From a virus, in IMG/VR virus record IMGVR_UViG_3300037557_000319, positions 1 through 42,635 of that record: a DNA stretch of 42,635 nucleotides. The stretch is one strand, 5' to 3'. The position numbers were made by a program, and so were the translations under genes. Positions 16,155 through 35,249 of the stretch are shown here, one piece after another; positions within the stretch are counted from its first letter, which is position 1; each line of letters opens with the position of its first letter. The notes under the pieces are model-generated. The model was not told the DNA's origin, searched no databases, and worked only from the letters and a program-made list of their open reading frames with translations.

Positions 16155-16975
16155 TAGATTCCTCCAAAATGTGGGGCTCCGACTAGACCCATTGTAAGGC
16201 CTTTACGGAGTTTATTCTTACGGGGCTTAAATGCACCCCCGCGAAAGAGCTTCCAAAACAAAGGAGACTCCGTCAATACGCGCAGTTCAGTTTTATTCAT
16301 GTATTGGGGGCCAACGATTAATTTATGCCGGAACTTTAAGCGTTTCAAAATTCCTCCCTCTAGCTGAGGAGGCCACGGAGTGTTCTCCCAGTCTACATTG
16401 ACAGCCCATAACTGAAAACAGGGCTCTTTAGCTAGCACCTTAGCCCCCTCTTCCAGACTCCTTAAGACCCAGGGCTTTGTCTCCCCCGTGACGTGGGCTA
16501 AGCGAGACAGAGACATGCCCGAACTATAAGAGCGTAGGAGTTGTACGTCCGGGTTGCACATCGTTTTAACGGGGATGTTCCCCCGTTTGAAACAAGCTAC
16601 TTCGTAGGGATGCGGGATGGGAAGTTTACCGAAGGCGTCCACTACATTAGCGGGAAAGTGTTTAGGTGCGACCAGGGCGTTAGGCTCATAAAACCATTCG
16701 TGTACTGCTGGGGTGCTATCCAGCCATGACTTGATCCCCTCGTAGTGGTTAGGGTTTGTGCGCCGGTTAAACGTAGCCCACCGGAAAGGGGCTCCTCTCC
16801 TCTCTTCCCCATATTTGAGGATGTAGGGGGGTACTGGTCCTTTGGGGTAATCTACATATTCGGTTGAGCTTAATGCTCTAAGGGCCGTAAAAAAGATCGG
16901 ATAAACTACGTGGGCTCTCGGAGCAGGAATTTGTCCTGTGGGAAAAAGGTAGTACTCGGGAGGCTTAGTTTTCAT
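16154..16975 (-). CDS. HTH-containing protein, possible small terminase or regulator
   Basis: The ATG at 16975 (273 residues) is preferred over a TTG at 16993, and either start overlaps the end of the primase-helicase gene. Most of the protein is unrecognised and rich in Pro and aromatic residues. Residues about 145-181 (PDVQLLRSYSSGMSLSRLAH, then WVLRSLEEGAKVL) have the spacing of a helix-turn-helix, similar to resolvase-type or sigma region-4 motifs. A basic C-terminus follows. Its position before terL fits a DNA-recognition partner of the terminase, but a transcription regulator is equally possible. Confidence 0.65.
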   Translation of the reverse strand: MKTKPPEYYLFPTGQIPAPRAHVVYPIFFTALRALSSTEYVDYPKGPVPPYILKYGEERRGAPFRWATFNRRTNPNHYEGIKSWLDSTPAVHEWFYEPNALVAPKHFPANVVDAFGKLPIPHPYEVACFKRGNIPVKTMCNPDVQLLRSYSSGMSLSRLAHVTGETKPWVLRSLEEGAKVLAKEPCFQLWAVNVDWENTPWPPQLEGGILKRLKFRHKLIVGPQYMNKTELRVLTESPLFWKLFRGGAFKPRKNKLRKGLTMGLVGAPHFGGI

Positions 16976-19442
16976 TCTCGACCCACTGGTCAAGCGTGAT
17001 TACTTGGCCTAAGTCTTTTGGGCTAACAGCCCCTTCTTCTCTGAGTTTGATCCCGAGCCACGGACGATAGGTGGTTGAGGACCCTTTCTTGGAGGGTTTC
17101 CCTTGGACGTAAGAGCGCTCACGCATGAGCATCGCGAAGAAGCGTGGCTTCATGGGGTACTCGTGGCTGTCTTCACACCAGTCTACGTAAGCGTTGTAGA
17201 GATTCTTGGGGTTGATCAAGAACTCTTTGCCCATTTCACAACGGTCATCGAAGAAAGGTTTGATGAGGTCAAGCTCTTCTCGGTACTCTTGTGTAGCTGC
17301 CGTGACGGATTCGGGTGCGTTAAGTCCGTTTCGTTGCCAGTCTAGACACCCAGCTACTAAGCGATTTAGGATGCCAGGTAACTCCCCTCGGAGCTTTGAG
17401 TCTAGCTCCTTATCTTGACGCTCTTCGGGTATCTTTTCCTCAAAGGGCACAAGTAAAACTCGACGCCAAATCCCCTCGTCGTTCCCCTTGATGATGGGCT
17501 TGTGGTTAGCGGCTAGCCAGAGCTTATGGGTGGGTTGAAACTCGAAGAAGTCTTGCTTCATGTAACGAGCTTTAATTGGGTCGCCCCCGGTCATCTGCTT
17601 AATCGAAGCTTCGGCCAAGGCCCGACCTCGATCAATTTCTGCGCTCACTACCATGCGAGCCCCGAGTAAGTCAGCTACTTCAGTGGGATGGCGCCCATGT
17701 TTTGAGGCCACCAGAAGTTCAGGGGCAGCTTGCTTCGAGTAAGTCCCCATGAGATGTTGGACGGTGTTGAGGAAAGTGGACTTCCCGTTCGCCCCAGTAC
17801 CGTAACAGAATAGCAGCTTTTGCTCCCGCACAGAGCCTGTCAAGCTGTAGCCTAAGTAACGATAAATGAACGAGATGAGGTCTAACCTCCCGCCCAGTAT
17901 TTCATGGAGAAAGTTATCCCAGATGGGACACTCGGCATTAGTGTCATATTCTACTGGGCAGTTTTTAGAGATTAAGTCGGTGCGATTAAATGGAAGAAGC
18001 TGACCTGTCTTAAGGTCTACGGTCCCGTTAGCCGTATTGAGTTTCCAAGGGTCGTTATCAAATTTATTAGCGGGTATAGCCATGCCTGCTTCGCTTGAAG
18101 CGAGGATAACCATTGAGTGAAGAGAGCCTGATGATTCTGACCGGACAGCATGTTTGTACATGCGTTCAGATTTAGCGCTGTCATTTTCTGCTGCAGCATC
18201 GAGGAATACATCGGCAACAGCTTCTTCTGCTAGGCGCATAATGCGTCCTGTTTCGTCGAGTTCCCATGACTTGCTGTTGTAGGAAACCCACTTCTTGCGG
18301 CTAGGGATGAACTTAATGTCGTGACCAAACTTTTGTACGAGTCGTTTAGCGTTACCGAGGTCTGTGAGACCTGGTGCATTTCCGGAGGAGCCCGTGACTT
18401 GGGCTGGTTTGTCGTCATCGCTGTTGCTACTGGACTTAAAGCGTCCGAACTTATCCTGAAAGGCTCGCCATCCTTTCCGACCAGATCCCACACAGTCATT
18501 GTGCTGGCACCCCGCATACACTTCCCCACTGTGTGTCTGCACGATGTAAGCGCTACTGTCTGTGTGCGTCTCATTAAACGGACAAACAGGCAAAACCCAT
18601 TTGCGTCCTTTATCCCCCCAGGGGAACGCATCACCTATTGTCGGTAAATTCGCCGTGATCCAGAGGTCAAGACGACGAGCCTTCGCAGAATTTAGTGCGC
18701 CACGATTTTCAGGGGCGCGTTTTGCAAATTGTTCGACCAGTTTCTTCGGGCAGCGTTTGAACTCTTCGGGTACGTTAAGGAGTCGGGCTAGACGGTGAGG
18801 TCTGTCCTCGATGCTGTTGCCCTTGCGTACTGCTGTCCCGTAAAGCTTCCAAATCCGTGCAGGATTGAAGACTTTCTGGTCAATAGTGACCCCCTCTTCG
18901 TCGAAGAAGAGACTCAACGCCGCGTAGAATCGGCGCAAGATAGAGTCATTAGGTTTCATGTTGATTTTGTAGATGAGATGAGCCCCGTTCCCAGAGTCCC
19001 CGACGATGGGTTTAGGCCACCCCTCAGCTTGGAGAGAGCGGTAAATGGTGCGGGCTACGCTAAACGCTTTGCGCTTTTCATCGTTGCTCGACCCAACGTG
19101 AGCAGGACGGACAGGATCAATGTCGATGAGGAGGTAGCTGTGCTCGATTACGTCAGCATCGCTAGTCGCCTGCAAACCCCGCGTTACTTTGTTAGGGCTT
19201 CGAGCGAATAAGGCTTCGTTTACTCGGTTAGGGGTGATGTAAACCCCAATAGCCCCGTCATCACTGACGTTGGCTGCTGTTGTTGACAACAATTCTAGGT
19301 CGTTGAAGTAACCTGAGCTTACGCGGGCCTTACCACCATAAGGACTGGGGAATAAGGCACGAAGCTCAACTACCTGTCCTTCCTCAAAGAGCGCACGGAG
19401 GGTAGCCAGAATTTCCTGGCGGTTCGCTGGGGGGGATTGCAT
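16965..19442 (-). CDS. Primase-helicase (AEP primase plus D5/SF3 helicase)
   Basis: An 825-residue replication protein. The N-terminal archaeo-eukaryotic-type primase domain has the metal motif LLIDID (104-109) and the GDSGNGAHLIY motif (148-158). A Cys/His cluster (Cys287, His293, Cys312, Cys317) could be a zinc finger. The C-terminal SF3 helicase has Walker A GTGANGKST (548-556), a Walker B region near SAEID (600-604) and the sensor LWLAANHKP (641-649). Such fusions unwind DNA at the origin and make primers. The TGTAACC repeat cluster lies just upstream, beyond the HTH gene, consistent with an origin there. Confidence 0.9.
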   Translation of the reverse strand: MQSPPANRQEILATLRALFEEGQVVELRALFPSPYGGKARVSSGYFNDLELLSTTAANVSDDGAIGVYITPNRVNEALFARSPNKVTRGLQATSDADVIEHSYLLIDIDPVRPAHVGSSNDEKRKAFSVARTIYRSLQAEGWPKPIVGDSGNGAHLIYKINMKPNDSILRRFYAALSLFFDEEGVTIDQKVFNPARIWKLYGTAVRKGNSIEDRPHRLARLLNVPEEFKRCPKKLVEQFAKRAPENRGALNSAKARRLDLWITANLPTIGDAFPWGDKGRKWVLPVCPFNETHTDSSAYIVQTHSGEVYAGCQHNDCVGSGRKGWRAFQDKFGRFKSSSNSDDDKPAQVTGSSGNAPGLTDLGNAKRLVQKFGHDIKFIPSRKKWVSYNSKSWELDETGRIMRLAEEAVADVFLDAAAENDSAKSERMYKHAVRSESSGSLHSMVILASSEAGMAIPANKFDNDPWKLNTANGTVDLKTGQLLPFNRTDLISKNCPVEYDTNAECPIWDNFLHEILGGRLDLISFIYRYLGYSLTGSVREQKLLFCYGTGANGKSTFLNTVQHLMGTYSKQAAPELLVASKHGRHPTEVADLLGARMVVSAEIDRGRALAEASIKQMTGGDPIKARYMKQDFFEFQPTHKLWLAANHKPIIKGNDEGIWRRVLLVPFEEKIPEERQDKELDSKLRGELPGILNRLVAGCLDWQRNGLNAPESVTAATQEYREELDLIKPFFDDRCEMGKEFLINPKNLYNAYVDWCEDSHEYPMKPRFFAMLMRERSYVQGKPSKKGSSTTYRPWLGIKLREEGAVSPKDLGQVITLDQWVENEN

Positions 19443-19454
19443 AGAGGGAGTCTC

Positions 19455-19787
19455 CTAATCGTTGAACAAATCCTCTTCGATATGTCGGGGGGAATTGACA
19501 GGATATACCACATCTTGGGGAGTGGTAGTGGTGACGGTGACGGGCGCCGCATTCGTCACCTTGCGTTTGGGTAAAGAGCGGGCTTCAGTCTCGGCCCATG
19601 AGCGGTGTGCTTCTTTGGTATTTGATTTAATGTACTTTTCTAGGGTACGAGGTGACACGCGCCAACTGCTCCCGAACTTCATAGCGGGTAGTTCCTTACG
19701 CCGCACCAGATTACGCACGGTGTTGACATGGACTCTTAGCTTTACGGCAATTTCTTCAAGCGTCAGCAATTGTTCATTGGCTGGCAT
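19455..19787 (-). CDS. Excisionase/MerR-type HTH DNA-binding protein
   Basis: A 110-residue protein. Residues 7-52 match the helix-turn-helix 17 pattern: LLTLEEIAVKLRVHVNTVRN, then PAMKFGSSWRVSPRTLEKYI, a winged helix typical of excisionase-like binders. The C-terminal half is Thr/Pro-rich and acidic. It is the first gene of the minus-strand operon, with AAGGAG before its ATG. It probably binds the repeats in the adjacent intergenic region as a replication initiator partner or as a repressor of its own promoter. No integrase is present, so excision is unlikely to be its job. Confidence 0.82.
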   Translation of the reverse strand: MPANEQLLTLEEIAVKLRVHVNTVRNLVRRKELPAMKFGSSWRVSPRTLEKYIKSNTKEAHRSWAETEARSLPKRKVTNAAPVTVTTTTPQDVVYPVNSPRHIEEDLFND

Positions 19788-19819
19788 TGTTACTCCTTGT
19801 AAGAATTGTTCTATGAAGA

Positions 19820-19848
19820 GTTGTATTATAGATCGAGGGCTATGTCAA
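19820..19848 (-). promoter_or_regulatory. Probable sigma70-type promoter of the minus-strand operon
   Basis: On the minus strand TTGACA (19843-19848) lies upstream of two possible -10 elements. TACAAC (19820-19825) has a 17-base spacer. A perfect TATAAT (19825-19830) has only a 12-base spacer. The first ATG is 33 bases downstream. This would drive the HTH, primase and late genes. Confidence 0.5.
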
Positions 19849-19944
19849 GTAAGTATATTAAATTCCCCATCTACTGCTGCTTAGCTACATCAAGCACAAT
19901 GGTTTCTTCAGGTGACACCTTAGGCTTTACAAGTTCTTTACTGC

Positions 19945-20253
19945 TTGTAACCTCTTGTAACCATGGTTGTAACCCTCGGCTATTGTAGCTTGGAGCCCGT
20001 GAATGGGTGTTTGGGGAGGGCCAAGATTACAGGTTACAGAAAATCTGGGTTCACCTATATATAGAAACGTGTATGTATGATGTATTTATAGTGTATATAT
20101 GGTGTAAAAAGACAATAATAGTTAGTATCTATATACGCGTAATGGCTAATCTCTGTAACTTGTAACTTTTATTCTTATATCTTACTTGAAACCTAGGTTA
20201 ATTGAGGTTACAGGGTAGGTTACAGACTGTCAACGAAATGTAAAGCTGTAACC
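19945..20253. repeat. TGTAACC repeat cluster (candidate origin or operator)
   Basis: Seven exact TGTAACC heptamers occur in 310 bases. Four are on the plus strand (starts 19946, 19956, 19968, 20247) and three inverted as GGTTACA (20032, 20206, 20218). Two TGTAACT copies lie head to tail at 20154 and 20161, and GATTACA at 20025 abuts one GGTTACA. The spacing of neighbours is 10 or 12 bases, about one helical turn. Between the flanking groups is an AT-rich stretch (20041-20190). The cluster is next to the HTH and primase-helicase genes. Confidence 0.8.
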
Positions 20254-20341
20254 TTCCGCCTCGAAGCAGGCTTATCAGGCAGCATAAAGTGCAACGGGGT
20301 ATTAGTCGAAAATTGCTTGGCGTTTTTTTACCTCCTATCCT

Positions 20342-20368
20342 AAAAAGGAAAAGGCCCCTCGAAAGGGG
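20342..20368 (-). terminator. Rho-independent terminator for the 181-residue gene
   Basis: Read on the minus strand, CCCCT-TTCG-AGGGG (20368-20355) forms a five-pair stem with a TTCG tetraloop, followed by CCTTTTCCTTTTT. It lies about 120 bases after the stop of the gene at 20483-21028 and before the repeat cluster, so it would insulate the two. Confidence 0.6.
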
Positions 20369-20377
20369 GGAAGCCTC

Positions 20378-20460
20378 GGCTAGGCAGACTGGTGCGCTGT
20401 GCGCTGGCCCGTGGGTGTGGCGCTGGACCCCTAGCCAGGTGCGCCCGTGGAGGCGCGACC
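20378..20460. other. GC-rich double hairpin of unknown function
   Basis: Two neighbouring stems lie within a sharply GC-rich block. GGCTAGG (20378-20384) pairs with CCTAGCC (20430-20436) around a loop that contains three GCGCTG copies. GGTGCGCC (20438-20445) pairs with GGCGC-G-ACC (20452-20460) with one bulged base. The block lies between the terminator and the stop of the 181-residue gene. It could be the 3' end of that transcript, a small RNA, or a replication structure. Confidence 0.45.
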
Positions 20461-20482
20461 CTGTGCAGTGTGTGGGTAACGA

Positions 20483-21028
20483 TTAACAACGTTCCTCTTC
20501 GGGTAACCAAGAACGATCGGGCGCATCGTCGCCGTCGGCTATCGTTCGCAGTCCTTCTGCCTTTGTTACGTCTCGGTAATTACACACAACGCGAGTGTGA
20601 TGACGGGCGGTTAGGGGAGAAGGCTCGTTATATCCATAGGGACATTCCCACACGAACACCGCACACTCTTTCTTTGTGGGTCGACGCAAGCTTACTAGGC
20701 AGTATTCGTGGCATGATGAATTCCATAACAGGGCTTCTAAACCTGAATCATTCACCACAATTATCTTCCATTCGTCTTGCTCAACTAGAGCCTCCGGCTC
20801 TTTTCCCAATCCATCAACATTGTACCAACTCATATCGCCCTGCATTAAATCACTGCACCTGCTCCTACAATTGTATGCGGCGGATTCAACATCTTTCAGG
20901 ACTAGAATCTCGGTACCTCCATTGTCATAGTTGCTCGCCTCATTGATAGCGCTGCTTTCGCCGGGATATACACGGTTAAAGGTGTCATAGAATAGATCGA
21001 GTGTACAGTTGGTGTTAATCAGTTGCAT
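20483..21028 (-). CDS. Isolated hypothetical protein in the regulatory hub
   Basis: A 181-residue acidic protein with seven or more Cys residues and no recognised domain. The composition is protein-like, with regular acidic and hydrophobic alternation, while the plus-strand frame over the same bases is Cys/His/Arg-biased and looks like a shadow. The ribosome site is weak (GAGAAG). An extended -10 promoter lies just upstream and a terminator downstream, so it appears to be a one-gene unit. It may be an early host-takeover protein, but this is inference from position only. Confidence 0.6.
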   Translation of the reverse strand: MQLINTNCTLDLFYDTFNRVYPGESSAINEASNYDNGGTEILVLKDVESAAYNCRSRCSDLMQGDMSWYNVDGLGKEPEALVEQDEWKIIVVNDSGLEALLWNSSCHEYCLVSLRRPTKKECAVFVWECPYGYNEPSPLTARHHTRVVCNYRDVTKAEGLRTIADGDDAPDRSWLPEEERC

Positions 21029-21070
21029 TGTGTCTTCTCGTTGTTAGTGGTTCTCTGTTTAGCTGTCGCT

Positions 21071-21079
21071 ATTATAACA
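21071..21079 (-). promoter_or_regulatory. Extended -10 promoter for the 181-residue gene
   Basis: On the minus strand TGTTATAAT matches the extended -10 consensus (TGnTATAAT) exactly. The ATG is about 43 bases downstream. No good -35 element is seen, which is normal for extended -10 promoters. Confidence 0.5.
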
Positions 21080-21722
21080 ACAAAATAGGAACCAGGCTAA
21101 CACTTCGCTATAACCTAGGGTCCTACTCTCTTATTAGTGGTACACTTTATACGCTTATATATATATCGTGGCGCATTAGGTGGTTTTTCTCCTGTCAGCC
21201 CCTAAAACTAAACACTTGTTTAATTTGAGAGCTTGAATGTAAACACTGTAAACATCGGGTTCCACTTAACCCCTACTTAACCGTCCTGCTTGTTCCTCTT
21301 TTCAGTCAATGCCCCGACCCATTCCTACCCCGTTGCAATTTTACGCCCTTTGCTAAACGTGCCACGCAAGGGCCTGCGCTCACTTTGTTTCACTTTACCC
21401 CTTCCCAAAGCTACCCCAATTAGTTAAGATGTATTCACCAACGAGGGAAACACCGACACACCGACAAGCTGAACATCACATAAGCCAACCAAGTATAAAG
21501 GGCTAAAACAGTTCTGGCCGTAATAGCTAAAGACACCCACTTAATCGAGCGTATACGATACAAAGCAAATCATTACTGTGTAGGGGCTATCTTCTGAAGT
21601 AACGCAAGTTTAGTTTACTAGTTTACTAGGGTTCTAACCGGACTTAAGAACGACGGGCGTGTGATACATAGCTGAAGCACTATAGGACCGCAAAGGCGGA
21701 CGTGTGGAGGACTCTGCTCTGA
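21080..21722. other. Non-coding regulatory stretch
   Basis: No convincing gene is present. The stretch contains a tandem TGTAAACA pair (21238-21245, 21247-21254), a tandem CACCGACA pair (21451-21466), a tandem TTTACTAG pair (21614-21629) and the palindrome CGTATACG (21550-21557). There is a hairpin GTTCT/AGAAC (21631-21651) and a CCGC/GCGG hairpin (21688-21699). Bases 21300-21420 are pyrimidine-rich on the plus strand. It presumably holds the promoter(s) for the plus-strand early genes, though no clear -35/-10 pair was found. Confidence 0.6.
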
Positions 21723-22080
21723 CTATCCGGGTCCAGCGGAGGATAAAGAACCTACGGGCACCTTTTGCCTACCCGTAGCTAAATGACACAGGATAGGTGT
21801 GTCTAGTCTGGGGCTCTGCAATACAGCAACCATCCTACGGGGTGGAGAGCCAGCCGAAGTAATGTTATCAAGGTGATAACTAGCTAACCCGAGTACAAAC
21901 GGGCACCACAATTGTGGTTCATACCTAGCCTAACGGCCATGACAGTATGAGAATCGGCGGTCATACCTGACGGGTGAGGATAAAACCTTTCCCAACGCGA
22001 AGAAACGGGAAATAGCAGGGACTGACAAACCCTGCCTTCCAATTGAGTAGCACGGCTATCCGGTCCTGCTTCTCTATTGG
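21723..22080 (+). ncRNA. Candidate structured RNA or long 5' leader
   Basis: About 360 bases hold a near-continuous series of stems. In order they are TATCC/GGATA (21724-21745), CTACGGG/CCCGTAG (21752-21778), GACACA/TGTGTC (21785-21803), a 12-pair composite GGCTCT+CCATCC/GGGTGG+AGAGCC capped by a TACG tetraloop (21812-21851), GTTATCA/TGATAAC (21864-21880) and CCCG/CGGG (21888-21903). They continue with the palindrome ACCACAATTGTGGT (21905-21918), GTATGA/TCATAC (21945-21966), TTTCCC/GGGAAA (21988-22012), GCAGGG/CCCTGC (22015-22035) and a long interrupted stem 22039-22080. The C(TACG)G loop is a UNCG tetraloop only on the plus strand. No family is recognised. Confidence 0.55.
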
Positions 22081-22090
22081 AGGTCAAGTC

Positions 22091-22267
22091 ATGCAAGGAA
22101 TACAAGCAAACATCAAACAGCAAACAAGCCACCGACGTTTGAAGGCGAAGAAGACACGCCAGCCAAAACGGGAGAAACGCGGCAAAGCAGGCCAATGCAT
22201 CCAGTGGAAACGGTGCCCTAAAACCGGCCACCTTTTCAACCCTACAACCCACCGCCCACAGGAGTAA
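22091..22267 (+). CDS. Small very basic protein, first early gene
   Basis: A 58-residue protein. The ATG at 22091 has GGAGG seven bases upstream, and an earlier TTG lies inside the hairpin region and is rejected. About one third of the residues are Lys, Arg or His, concentrated in residues 14-31. A CIQWKRC segment and a final TGHLFNPTTHRP follow, so a two-Cys/His metal site is possible. It is the first gene after the structured leader. Nucleic-acid binding is likely from composition. No family is recognised. Confidence 0.65.
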   Translation: MQGIQANIKQQTSHRRLKAKKTRQPKREKRGKAGQCIQWKRCPKTGHLFNPTTHRPQE

Positions 22268-22270
22268 CTA

Positions 22271-32795: not shown

Positions 32796-35249
32796 ATGAA
32801 ACCCCGATGCGATGAGTGTCCCCTTGCTGCTTACTGGAGCGAGCGGGGCGAGTGGTCTCCTGTGCCTAGTGAACTTAACACTACGGAGACTCTGGTAGTG
32901 GGCGAGTTCCCCAGCAAACAGGATACAACTTACCAGCGGCCTTTCAGTGGGGCTAATGGCGTAGAGTTATTAGACGCCCTTGCTGCCGTGGGTCGTGGTC
33001 GGAAAGACGTGTCATGGGTCAACGTGTGTGCGTGTCGGTTTCCTTATGACAAACCTGATGACTTCTTAGCTTCTTTGCGTAAGACCAACCGGACTCGTAA
33101 GCGCAAGGGGCAAGACCTAATCCCCACGCCGATGGAGTGTTGTCGTCCTCTCCTTCAGGAAGCCTTAGACCAACATGCCAATGTCATTACATTGGGTTCT
33201 CTCGCAGCCAAAGCGGTGCTACCCGGCAACCCAAACTTAGGGGGCATACGAGGGGGGCCTACTCTAGCCGATGGGCGTAAGGTGCTCCCGGCTCATGACC
33301 CTTCCTTTATTTCTTACCGCGCTGAATGGCGCAACATTTTCCGTCGCGATATTGCCAAAGCATTTAGGTACTTCGATGATAATCTGAACTGGGTCAGCCC
33401 CCGCACCTTTATGGAGCCGACACCCCAACAGTTACAGAAGTTCTTAAGAGAGTGCCGGGATAACCGGACACCTGTAGCTTACGATGTTGAGACGGATAGT
33501 ATTGAGGCGATGACCGCTAACCTACGGTGCATCGGCATTGGGACCGCCGACGCGGTATACATCGTGCCTTTCTGCACCATCGCCGGGGAGTTTACTTTCT
33601 ACCCCGGTGAAGCTTATGCGCAGATGAGGGAAGTTCTGGTCTGGTTCTTCACGGACGCAGGCATCCTCAAGGTAGGGCATAACGCTGGCTACTACGATCG
33701 TATCGTCATCGAACAACATTTGGATGTAACCCCTGCGCCGTTACTAGATACTATCCTGTTACACAAGCTAGCGCGAAGCGAATACCCGCATAGCTTGGGA
33801 CATATTGGGTCAGTGGAAACCGATGTGCCTGCGTGGAAGTCCGAGCATACGGCTACCAGTGCGCAGACAGACCTGGAGCTTTGGCGCTACTGCGCTACGG
33901 ACGTAGCCGTAACTGCTCGCATCGTAAAGATCCTCATGAGTCAGAGCCGTCAGCGTAAGCAGTTGCCTCTCTACCGCACGGACCAAGCCCTGCAGAACAT
34001 GTGCGTGGGGATGCATCGGTTAGGTGTACGCATTGATGAGAAGCGTCGTGAGGTTCATGAGAAGAAACTTCTTATCGAGCAAGGGGAGCAGTACGGGATC
34101 TTAGCCCACCACCTAGGGGAGAACTTCAACCCTAACAGTCACAACCAGGTACGCCGTCTCCTCTTCGACAAGTGGACCCTCCCTGCCCATACCTACACCT
34201 CAACCGGAGAACCCAGCACCAACGCAGCTACCTTACGCTGGCTGACTGCTAACCCTATCCTCGAAGAGCACCAGCGACCTATCGTGGATGCCTTACGACG
34301 CTACCGTAAAGTAACGAAGCTCTTGGATACTTATGTGAATAAGCTGGCACCCGATGCTGGATGGGTAGACAGCGATGGTTTTGTTTACCCCGACTACAAT
34401 GTGCATGGTACAGTTAGCGGTAGATTTTCTAGTTCCAACCCTAACTTCCAGAACATCCCTTACTCCCTGCGAAACATCTTTGTGCCCGCGCCGGGGATGG
34501 TATTTGTAGGCGCCGATTTCGACCAGCTAGAATTGCGCTTTGCTTCGGCTTTGTCCGGAGCCACCCACTACTTAGACGCCTTCGAGCAACAAGAGATTGA
34601 CCCCCACAACCTCACAGGAGAGTTAATGTTTGGGGCAAGTTTTTGGGAAACAGATGGCGCTCCAGAACTTAAGATGGAGAAGGGGACAGGCCAGTTCAAA
34701 AAGCTACGGGACTTAGCTAAGACGATTTGTTTTGCTTCGTTGTATGGTGCTTCCCCCCCTAAAGTCCATGAGCTTATTATGCAGGCGGAAGACAAAGAGG
34801 GGAACCTTCTTTACGCCCACTATGGTATTCGCGAAGTCCGAGCTTTGCACCGTAGGTGGCTTCGTGCGGCGCCCCAGTTCCAAGCGTGGTGGGAGTCACA
34901 GGTAGACTTTTGGCGTCGTAATGGCTACGTAGAGGAGCCAGTCTTAAAGCGTCGTCGTTACTTTTGGGAAGAGGATTTTAATGCTATCGTAAACTTCCCC
35001 GTGCAAGCGGGCGGGTTTAGTGTGGTGGCGTTAGGTATGCTCGACCTTATTCAAGAGATCCCTTTTGTTCCTAGTGAGCGGATAGGGATCGTTAACCAAC
35101 TGCATGATGCGGTACTCTTACAAGTACCAGAGCATCGTGCTCATGATACCCAACGGATCATCACTGAATGCCTAACCCGGAAACTTGACGGCTTGCCTGT
35201 CACCTTTACGGCTGAAGCTCACATTGGTGAGTCGTGGGATCAGGTCTAG
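32796..35249 (+). CDS. UDG-like domain fused to exonuclease and family A DNA polymerase
   Basis: An 817-residue fusion. Residues 1-195 resemble family IV/V uracil-DNA glycosylase: Cys5/Cys8, GEFPS (36-40), RPFSGANG (48-55), Cys78/80, Cys115/116 and HDPSF (167-171), with an iron-sulphur-type Cys set. The 3'-5' exonuclease has YDVETD (229-234), GHNAGYYD (294-301) and YCATDV (365-370). The polymerase has motif A DFDQLELR (574-581), motif B Arg638/Lys642/Phe646/Tyr650-Gly and motif C HDAV (770-773). Phage polymerases with such an N-terminal domain are known (SPO1 type). It is probably the replicative enzyme. The AAGGA site supports the ATG. Confidence 0.88.
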   Translation: MKPRCDECPLAAYWSERGEWSPVPSELNTTETLVVGEFPSKQDTTYQRPFSGANGVELLDALAAVGRGRKDVSWVNVCACRFPYDKPDDFLASLRKTNRTRKRKGQDLIPTPMECCRPLLQEALDQHANVITLGSLAAKAVLPGNPNLGGIRGGPTLADGRKVLPAHDPSFISYRAEWRNIFRRDIAKAFRYFDDNLNWVSPRTFMEPTPQQLQKFLRECRDNRTPVAYDVETDSIEAMTANLRCIGIGTADAVYIVPFCTIAGEFTFYPGEAYAQMREVLVWFFTDAGILKVGHNAGYYDRIVIEQHLDVTPAPLLDTILLHKLARSEYPHSLGHIGSVETDVPAWKSEHTATSAQTDLELWRYCATDVAVTARIVKILMSQSRQRKQLPLYRTDQALQNMCVGMHRLGVRIDEKRREVHEKKLLIEQGEQYGILAHHLGENFNPNSHNQVRRLLFDKWTLPAHTYTSTGEPSTNAATLRWLTANPILEEHQRPIVDALRRYRKVTKLLDTYVNKLAPDAGWVDSDGFVYPDYNVHGTVSGRFSSSNPNFQNIPYSLRNIFVPAPGMVFVGADFDQLELRFASALSGATHYLDAFEQQEIDPHNLTGELMFGASFWETDGAPELKMEKGTGQFKKLRDLAKTICFASLYGASPPKVHELIMQAEDKEGNLLYAHYGIREVRALHRRWLRAAPQFQAWWESQVDFWRRNGYVEEPVLKRRRYFWEEDFNAIVNFPVQAGGFSVVALGMLDLIQEIPFVPSERIGIVNQLHDAVLLQVPEHRAHDTQRIITECLTRKLDGLPVTFTAEAHIGESWDQV

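Follow-up and report, generated by a model that had tools for sequence, protein, structure and literature searches.

In phage P4, the alpha protein binds to repeats in the origin of replication through a winged helix, after which it unwinds the DNA and primes synthesis; this protein carries a Toprim-type primase (PMC4234260). In SaPIs, an iteron origin is recognized by the C-terminal domain of Rep; in SCCmec, the C-terminal domain of Cch2 binds to a putative origin with direct repeats that are required for Cch2 binding (PMC7581432). In pRN1, the transcriptional repressor ORF56 is encoded upstream of the replication protein and the origin has been described with a stem-loop and without iterons (PMC4234260).

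The window that we analyzed is the full stretch of an IMG/VR virus record, 42,635 bp long. A sequence-only reading of this DNA had pointed to a cluster of the heptamer TGTAACC in both orientations and had offered two proposals for it, an iteron-bearing origin of replication or an operator bound by an adjacent HTH protein. We conclude that positions 19926-20253 are very probably a replication origin, with iterons that would be bound and melted by the adjacent primase-helicase as in P4 and the SaPIs. The parts of this region are as follows, with coordinates given in the window.

19926-19941, no strand assigned: right degenerate flank boxes, TTTACA at 19926-19931 and TTTAC at 19937-19941; alignment A5 conserves GTmAA-N5-TGTmAA, the mirror of the left pair
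19946-19952, 19956-19962 and 19968-19974, plus strand: right outer iterons, three direct TGTAACC boxes, exact matches with 10 and 12 bp spacing
20025-20038, minus strand: right inner tandem pair, TGTAACC at 20032-20038 and TGTAATC at 20025-20031, 7 bp apart and opposite in orientation to the outer boxes
20039-20153, no strand assigned: AT-rich core, a predicted DNA unwinding element, 70% AT
20154-20167, plus strand: left inner tandem pair, TGTAACTTGTAACT (reverse complement AGTTACAAGTTACA), 7 bp apart and nearly invariant in 11 relatives (alignment A5)
20206-20224, minus strand: left outer iterons, TGTAACC at 20206-20212 and 20218-20224, exact matches that are invariant in alignment A5
20229-20245, no strand assigned: left degenerate flank boxes, TGTAAAG at 20239-20245 and GTCAA at 20229-20233; alignment A5 conserves CTTkACA-N5-TTkAC
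20247-20253, plus strand: outermost TGTAACC, found in the window and six of ten relatives

The genes and signals next to the array are these.

16965-19442, minus strand: P4/D5-type primase-helicase, 825 aa (D5_N, E 1.5e-30; TIGR01613, 6.9e-98; 7ola, E 4.6e-10)
17019-17276, minus strand: predicted C-terminal winged-helix origin-binding domain of this protein, approximately residues 723-808, from an AlphaFold2 model
19455-19787, minus strand: HTH protein, 110 aa, HTH_17/excisionase-type DNA-binding (PF12728, E 2.7e-14; TIGR01764, E 1.3e-11)
19820-19848, minus strand: predicted promoter of the HTH-primase operon, TTGACA at 19848-19843, 17 nt, TACAAC at 19825-19820, read from the sequence
20355-20368, minus strand: terminator-like hairpin ending the leftward gene 20483-21028 ahead of the array; such sites are no more numerous in this region than expected from shuffles

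The locus resembles ori/crr and alpha of P4 (NC_001609), where short boxes (TGTTCACC) also occur in both orientations in AT-rich DNA, many of them 9-11 bp apart, and where the initiator is also a P4-family helicase with a C-terminal winged-helix origin-binding domain, which in the window protein is predicted. It departs from the P4 replicon proper in its iteron, which is TGTAACC rather than TGTTCACC, in having one array 5' of the operon rather than a separate ori and crr with crr 3' of the initiator gene, and in a primase-helicase N-terminus that, unlike that of P4 alpha, gave no Toprim match. SaPI replicons (SaPI5 Rep) and SCCmec Cch2 share with the window a Primase_Cterm/D5_N initiator helicase beside an iteron origin, initiator and origin being putative in the window. 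However, the Cch2 iteron is AAGTG, the SaPI origin is 3' of rep whereas the window array is 5' of its operon, and a SaPI is an island whereas the window is a phage record of roughly 42 kb. Like the window, pRN1 has a gene for a small DNA-binding regulator (ORF56) followed by one for a primase-SF3 helicase-winged-helix protein (ORF904), but it has a stem-loop origin where the window has conspicuous iterons (PMC4234260). By structure comparison, AsfvPrimPol C962R and poxvirus D5/E5 have the same succession of primase, D5 helicase and C-terminal winged helix, although they are proteins of eukaryotic viruses and not of a phage. The features found here are those of the P4/SaPI-type class: a P4/D5-family helicase gene beside the array, a predicted winged helix and conserved repeats in two orientations around AT-rich DNA. 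The earlier statement that no motif of this form had been described holds for the sequence, which is new, whereas the form itself has precedents in the origins of P4 and SaPIs.

Seven exact copies of TGTAACC lie within 19946-20253 (19946+, 19956+, 19968+, 20032-, 20206-, 20218- and 20247+), the number given from the sequence alone, together with four copies that have one mismatch (20025-, 20154+, 20161+ and 20187+), one more than had been counted. As had been claimed, this is far above chance, with the top heptamer count reaching at most five in 5,000 first-order shuffles of 19788-20482, and the cluster is the densest of any heptamer in the 42,635-bp record. Over the whole record there are 12 exact copies compared with 5.28 expected from shuffles, and none of 100 shuffles reached 12; the five copies outside the array are scattered and occur at the chance rate. 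The spacing of about one helical turn between direct copies (10-12 bp measured) and the AT-rich stretch between the boxes were likewise borne out. No part of the record outside the core region is as AT-rich over 115 bp, since all 115-bp segments that are equally or more AT-rich start within 20019-20103, and the array is dyad-symmetric about this core. The array is the only one of its kind in the 42.6-kb record, which may be incomplete. Rfam and tRNA scans of the whole record gave no match, and a comparison of the intergenic region with known phages by DNA similarity gave short, chance-level matches only. No TTWTNCACA DnaA box lies closer than 8 kb to the array, and the four in the whole record are at chance level. 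A literature search for the heptamer gave as its sole match a chance overlap in an operator of the RA3 plasmid.

The HTH and primase-helicase genes adjoin the array in the positions noted earlier. Leftward from the array, the order is promoter, HTH gene, primase-helicase, then terminase and portal genes. Because the terminator-like hairpin is on one side and the operon promoter on the other, the array occupies a stretch of its own. The TTGACA of this promoter is invariant across relatives; a consensus promoter scan missed the promoter, as the rule of the scan demands a T at position 6 of the -10 element. The array is near the switch from leftward genes to a rightward arm that encodes a helicase, an exonuclease, a methyltransferase and polymerase A. 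A replication-linked signature in the GC skew could not be separated from gene orientation, which switches near 21-22 kb. Between the two gene arms, about 1.2 kb (21030-22270) contains no convincing gene and holds a TATATATATAT run. The polymerase A gene (32796-35249, plus strand) encodes a uracil-DNA-glycosylase superfamily domain fused to a 3'-5' exonuclease and a family A DNA polymerase.

We fetched relatives by primase homology only, six with the protein first and then 52 with its alignment; L001, one of the first six, is without upstream DNA. No relatives were found in a search of bacterial genomes. A search for the same repeats in related phages had been proposed as a check, and the array was present in all ten close relatives having enough upstream DNA, the primases of which are 64-78% identical. 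Box order and spacing are nearly identical in these relatives (12-46-7-[111-124]-65-12-10 bp). The arms of the array are constant to about 1 bp, except in L236 where a 22-bp insertion corresponds to about two helical turns and keeps the phase, and the length of the core (111-124 bp) is the sole part that varies freely. In this shared layout, outer boxes that point inward at 10-12 bp are followed by an outward-pointing inner tandem pair at 7 bp, the core and a second inner pair. On the far side come three outer boxes spaced by exactly 12 and 10 bp, and degenerate flank boxes mirror each other at the two ends. The spacing of the right outer iterons is identical in all 11 clade members, with GGTTACA invariant. 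In L230, L231, L234 and L236 the outermost box is swapped for an additional inward-pointing box. The spacers between the boxes have diverged among relatives (alignment A5). A site at which a nucleoprotein complex assembles on two arms that face each other would be expected to show this pattern. Just outside the array, the flank boxes (TTkAC pairs at 19926-19941 and 20229-20245) are conserved in 11 relatives, and the left pair is phased at about 10 bp with the array. These may be weak iterons, or the HTH protein may bind there.

The primase-helicase is assigned to TIGR01613 (primase_Cterm, phage/plasmid primase P4 family) and D5_N, an assignment that denotes family membership only. Among solved chains, the closest to it in sequence is 7ola, which we take to be SaPI5 Rep. 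We modelled the C-terminal 136 residues with AlphaFold2 from an alignment of the window and locus proteins (mean pLDDT 75.9). The best structural match to this model was the RFX DNA-binding domain (1dp7, Z 9.4), and the origin-binding domain of phage P4 (1ka8) ranked third (Z 8.0, 78 residues, rmsd 3.1 Å). The RFX half-site is GTTRCC/GGYAAC and shares a GTAAC core with TGTAACC. These fold matches are predictions that make DNA binding by the C-terminal domain plausible. In its full-length model, the protein is laid out like AsfvPrimPol and poxvirus D5/E5. The N-terminal half contains DID and GDSGNGxH motifs that may be read as archaeo-eukaryotic primase motifs; no profile match to a Toprim domain was obtained in the N-terminus, the fold of which matches AsfvPrimPol. 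The binder of the array is likely the primase-helicase rather than the HTH protein.

We examined whether arrays accompany other primases with a de novo detector that calls one heptamer present in at least five copies within 400 bp, with at least two copies per orientation. As a positive control, the detector recovered the annotated 'ori type 1 repeats' of P4 (TGTTCACC, NC_001609). For 23 of the 52 homology-fetched P4-type primases, a heptamer array of mixed orientation lay no more than 1 kb from the gene, compared with 0-2 per replicate in shuffles of the same regions and four in far regions comprising slightly more sequence. The rule that an array lies beside the primase is not universal because no array was detected in 18 of the 40 relatives with both flanks present. 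The heptamer is lineage-specific and includes TGTAACC, TGACTAC, TGACGGT, TGTTCAC (as in P4), TGGTCGC, GTTAGCG, TCGACAC, TGCACGT, TTTCACC and others. In most of the distant relatives the array is 3' of the initiator gene, whereas that of the window is 5' of the operon.

A pattern scan also placed TGTAACC arrays beside VapE-like, DUF927 (Cch-like), Toprim-DUF5906 and AAA_25 primase-helicases. This link between TGTAACC arrays and helicases is partly circular, as the proteins used as queries were themselves taken from these loci, and we relied on the homology-fetched set. Dense TGTAACC arrays were seen by other helicase classes or no recognized replication gene in L019, L055/L090, L088, L117, L016, L024, L047 and L087/L096; the one in L019 is beside an endolysin gene with no recognized replication gene near. 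Another contig with a TGTAACC array, L026, encodes a large terminase with an intein-like insertion, PF14890 (2316-4688, minus strand). A permuted control heptamer, TGACTAC (stretches L127-L227), formed mixed-orientation arrays in 53 of 101 stretches compared with 49 of the 119 matches listed for TGTAACC. We therefore rejected TGTAACC as a special universal signal, and the recurrence of one heptamer is unremarkable by itself because the control heptamer is equally frequent in arrays. Some TGACTAC arrays adjoin genes for primases 44% identical to that of the window, and many are by other genes such as those for terminases. TGACTAC arrays are large and occur in many viral contigs (for example L183, L195, L164, L241 and L243). 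What seems to be general is the use by phages of arrays of one heptamer or another.

A recognition code for the boxes of P4-type initiators, in which TGTAACC would recur either through an RFX-type preference for GTAAC or through exchange of origin and binding domain as a module, is a speculative idea that we regard as rather doubtful. In the predicted recognition helix, residue R767 (codon 17142-17144) is an arginine in four of the seven D5 lineages that use TGTAACC and in no users of other boxes, as judged by eye from a rough alignment, making it a possible specificity residue and only a lead. Among TGTAACC users, the arginine is present in the window clade, L069, L086, L124 and L021, and absent from L115, L035 and L091.

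The HTH gene always lies between the array and the primase in the window clade and its 43-48% relatives, and for this reason presence alone cannot separate the two potential binders there. Both proteins might bind, the primase-helicase on TGTAACC and the HTH protein on the flank boxes or as a helper in loading. This would fit with the conservation and mirror symmetry of the flank boxes, and replication proteins can have small DNA-binding partners such as ORF56 of pRN1 (PMC4234260). However, the flank boxes resemble weak iterons of the same phase and may be low-affinity sites for the initiator. We consider such joint binding unlikely, although not exclusive of the origin reading, with which it overlaps.

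That the array is instead an operator, with the 110-aa HTH_17 protein binding TGTAACC to control its own operon or early transcripts, is suggested by the position of this DNA-binding protein's gene directly downstream of the array and its presence with the array in every clade member. Boxes of an operator would be expected to overlap or abut the regulated promoter, but about 80-100 bp separate the end of the array from the -35 element downstream of it, with the nearest exact box about 98 bp upstream of this conserved element and no box overlapping the promoter. The recognition-helix segment of the HTH protein varies (VNTVRN, VCTNTVRA, SERTVQR), yet the box is still TGTAACC in the window clade, L069 and L086, and operators rarely need a symmetric array of at least ten boxes around a 115-bp AT core. 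In L247, L248, L257, L259, L261, L266 and L275 the arrays are directly 3' of the primase with no intervening gene; therefore, the array goes with the primase-helicase and not with the HTH gene. This leaves the operator, the second proposal made from the sequence alone, much the weaker of the two and in our judgment very unlikely. By analogy with pRN1, the HTH protein is probably an operon regulator, positioned like the repressor ORF56 upstream of the replication protein (PMC4234260).

We also consider it very unlikely that the region is a pRN1-type stem-loop origin in place of an iteron origin. The primase-helicase has the same order of primase, SF3 helicase and winged helix as the proteins for which the pRN1 authors proposed assembly at a stem-loop (PMC4234260), and the inverted boxes could pair if a single strand folded. 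However, single-strand folding was only mildly better than that of shuffles (z -1.75, matched by 3 of 100), and it is separate heptamers at fixed helical spacing that are conserved while the intervening sequence has diverged. Chance repeats or a functionless mobile repeat family can be practically dismissed, even though many heptamers are commonly repeated with a period of 12 in viral contigs, since the seven copies exceed the shuffle maximum of five and the conserved array, with boxes and spacing strictly kept among homologues whose primases are only 64-78% identical, already contradicts this.

The iteron-origin proposal is thus well supported by the conserved symmetry, the AT-rich center, the P4-type primase-helicase with its modelled P4-like domain, and the equivalent arrays beside other P4-type primases, including that of P4. 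From this we infer initiator binding, melting of the core, two rings, bidirectionality and origin activity. The inverted and helically phased TGTAACC boxes would be bound by the RFX/P4-type C-terminal winged helix of the 825-aa primase-helicase, and the symmetric arms on either side of the AT core would assemble two head-to-head helicase rings. The core would then be melted and a helicase loaded on each strand, starting bidirectional theta-type replication from the melted core. The fused archaeo-eukaryotic-type primase would make primers for the phage polymerase A (32796-35249), with the operon probably being regulated by the HTH protein.

What is new here is the particular iteron, its conserved architecture and the lineage-specific turnover of the motif; the type of origin is known from P4 and SaPIs and no new principle is involved. 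The iterons accompany a protein of the primase-SF3-winged-helix class, members of which had been proposed to use stem-loop origins (PMC4234260). It is rare for the origin of an uncultured phage to be identified, and this locus provides a complete, conserved candidate origin together with a named putative initiator. Our survey suggests that such origins can be found from sequence alone as mixed-orientation heptamer arrays beside P4-type primase genes, with the heptamer being specific to the lineage. If true, this would allow host-independent annotation of replicons, the construction of shuttle plasmids and work on how the specificity of the winged helix shifts together with its site.
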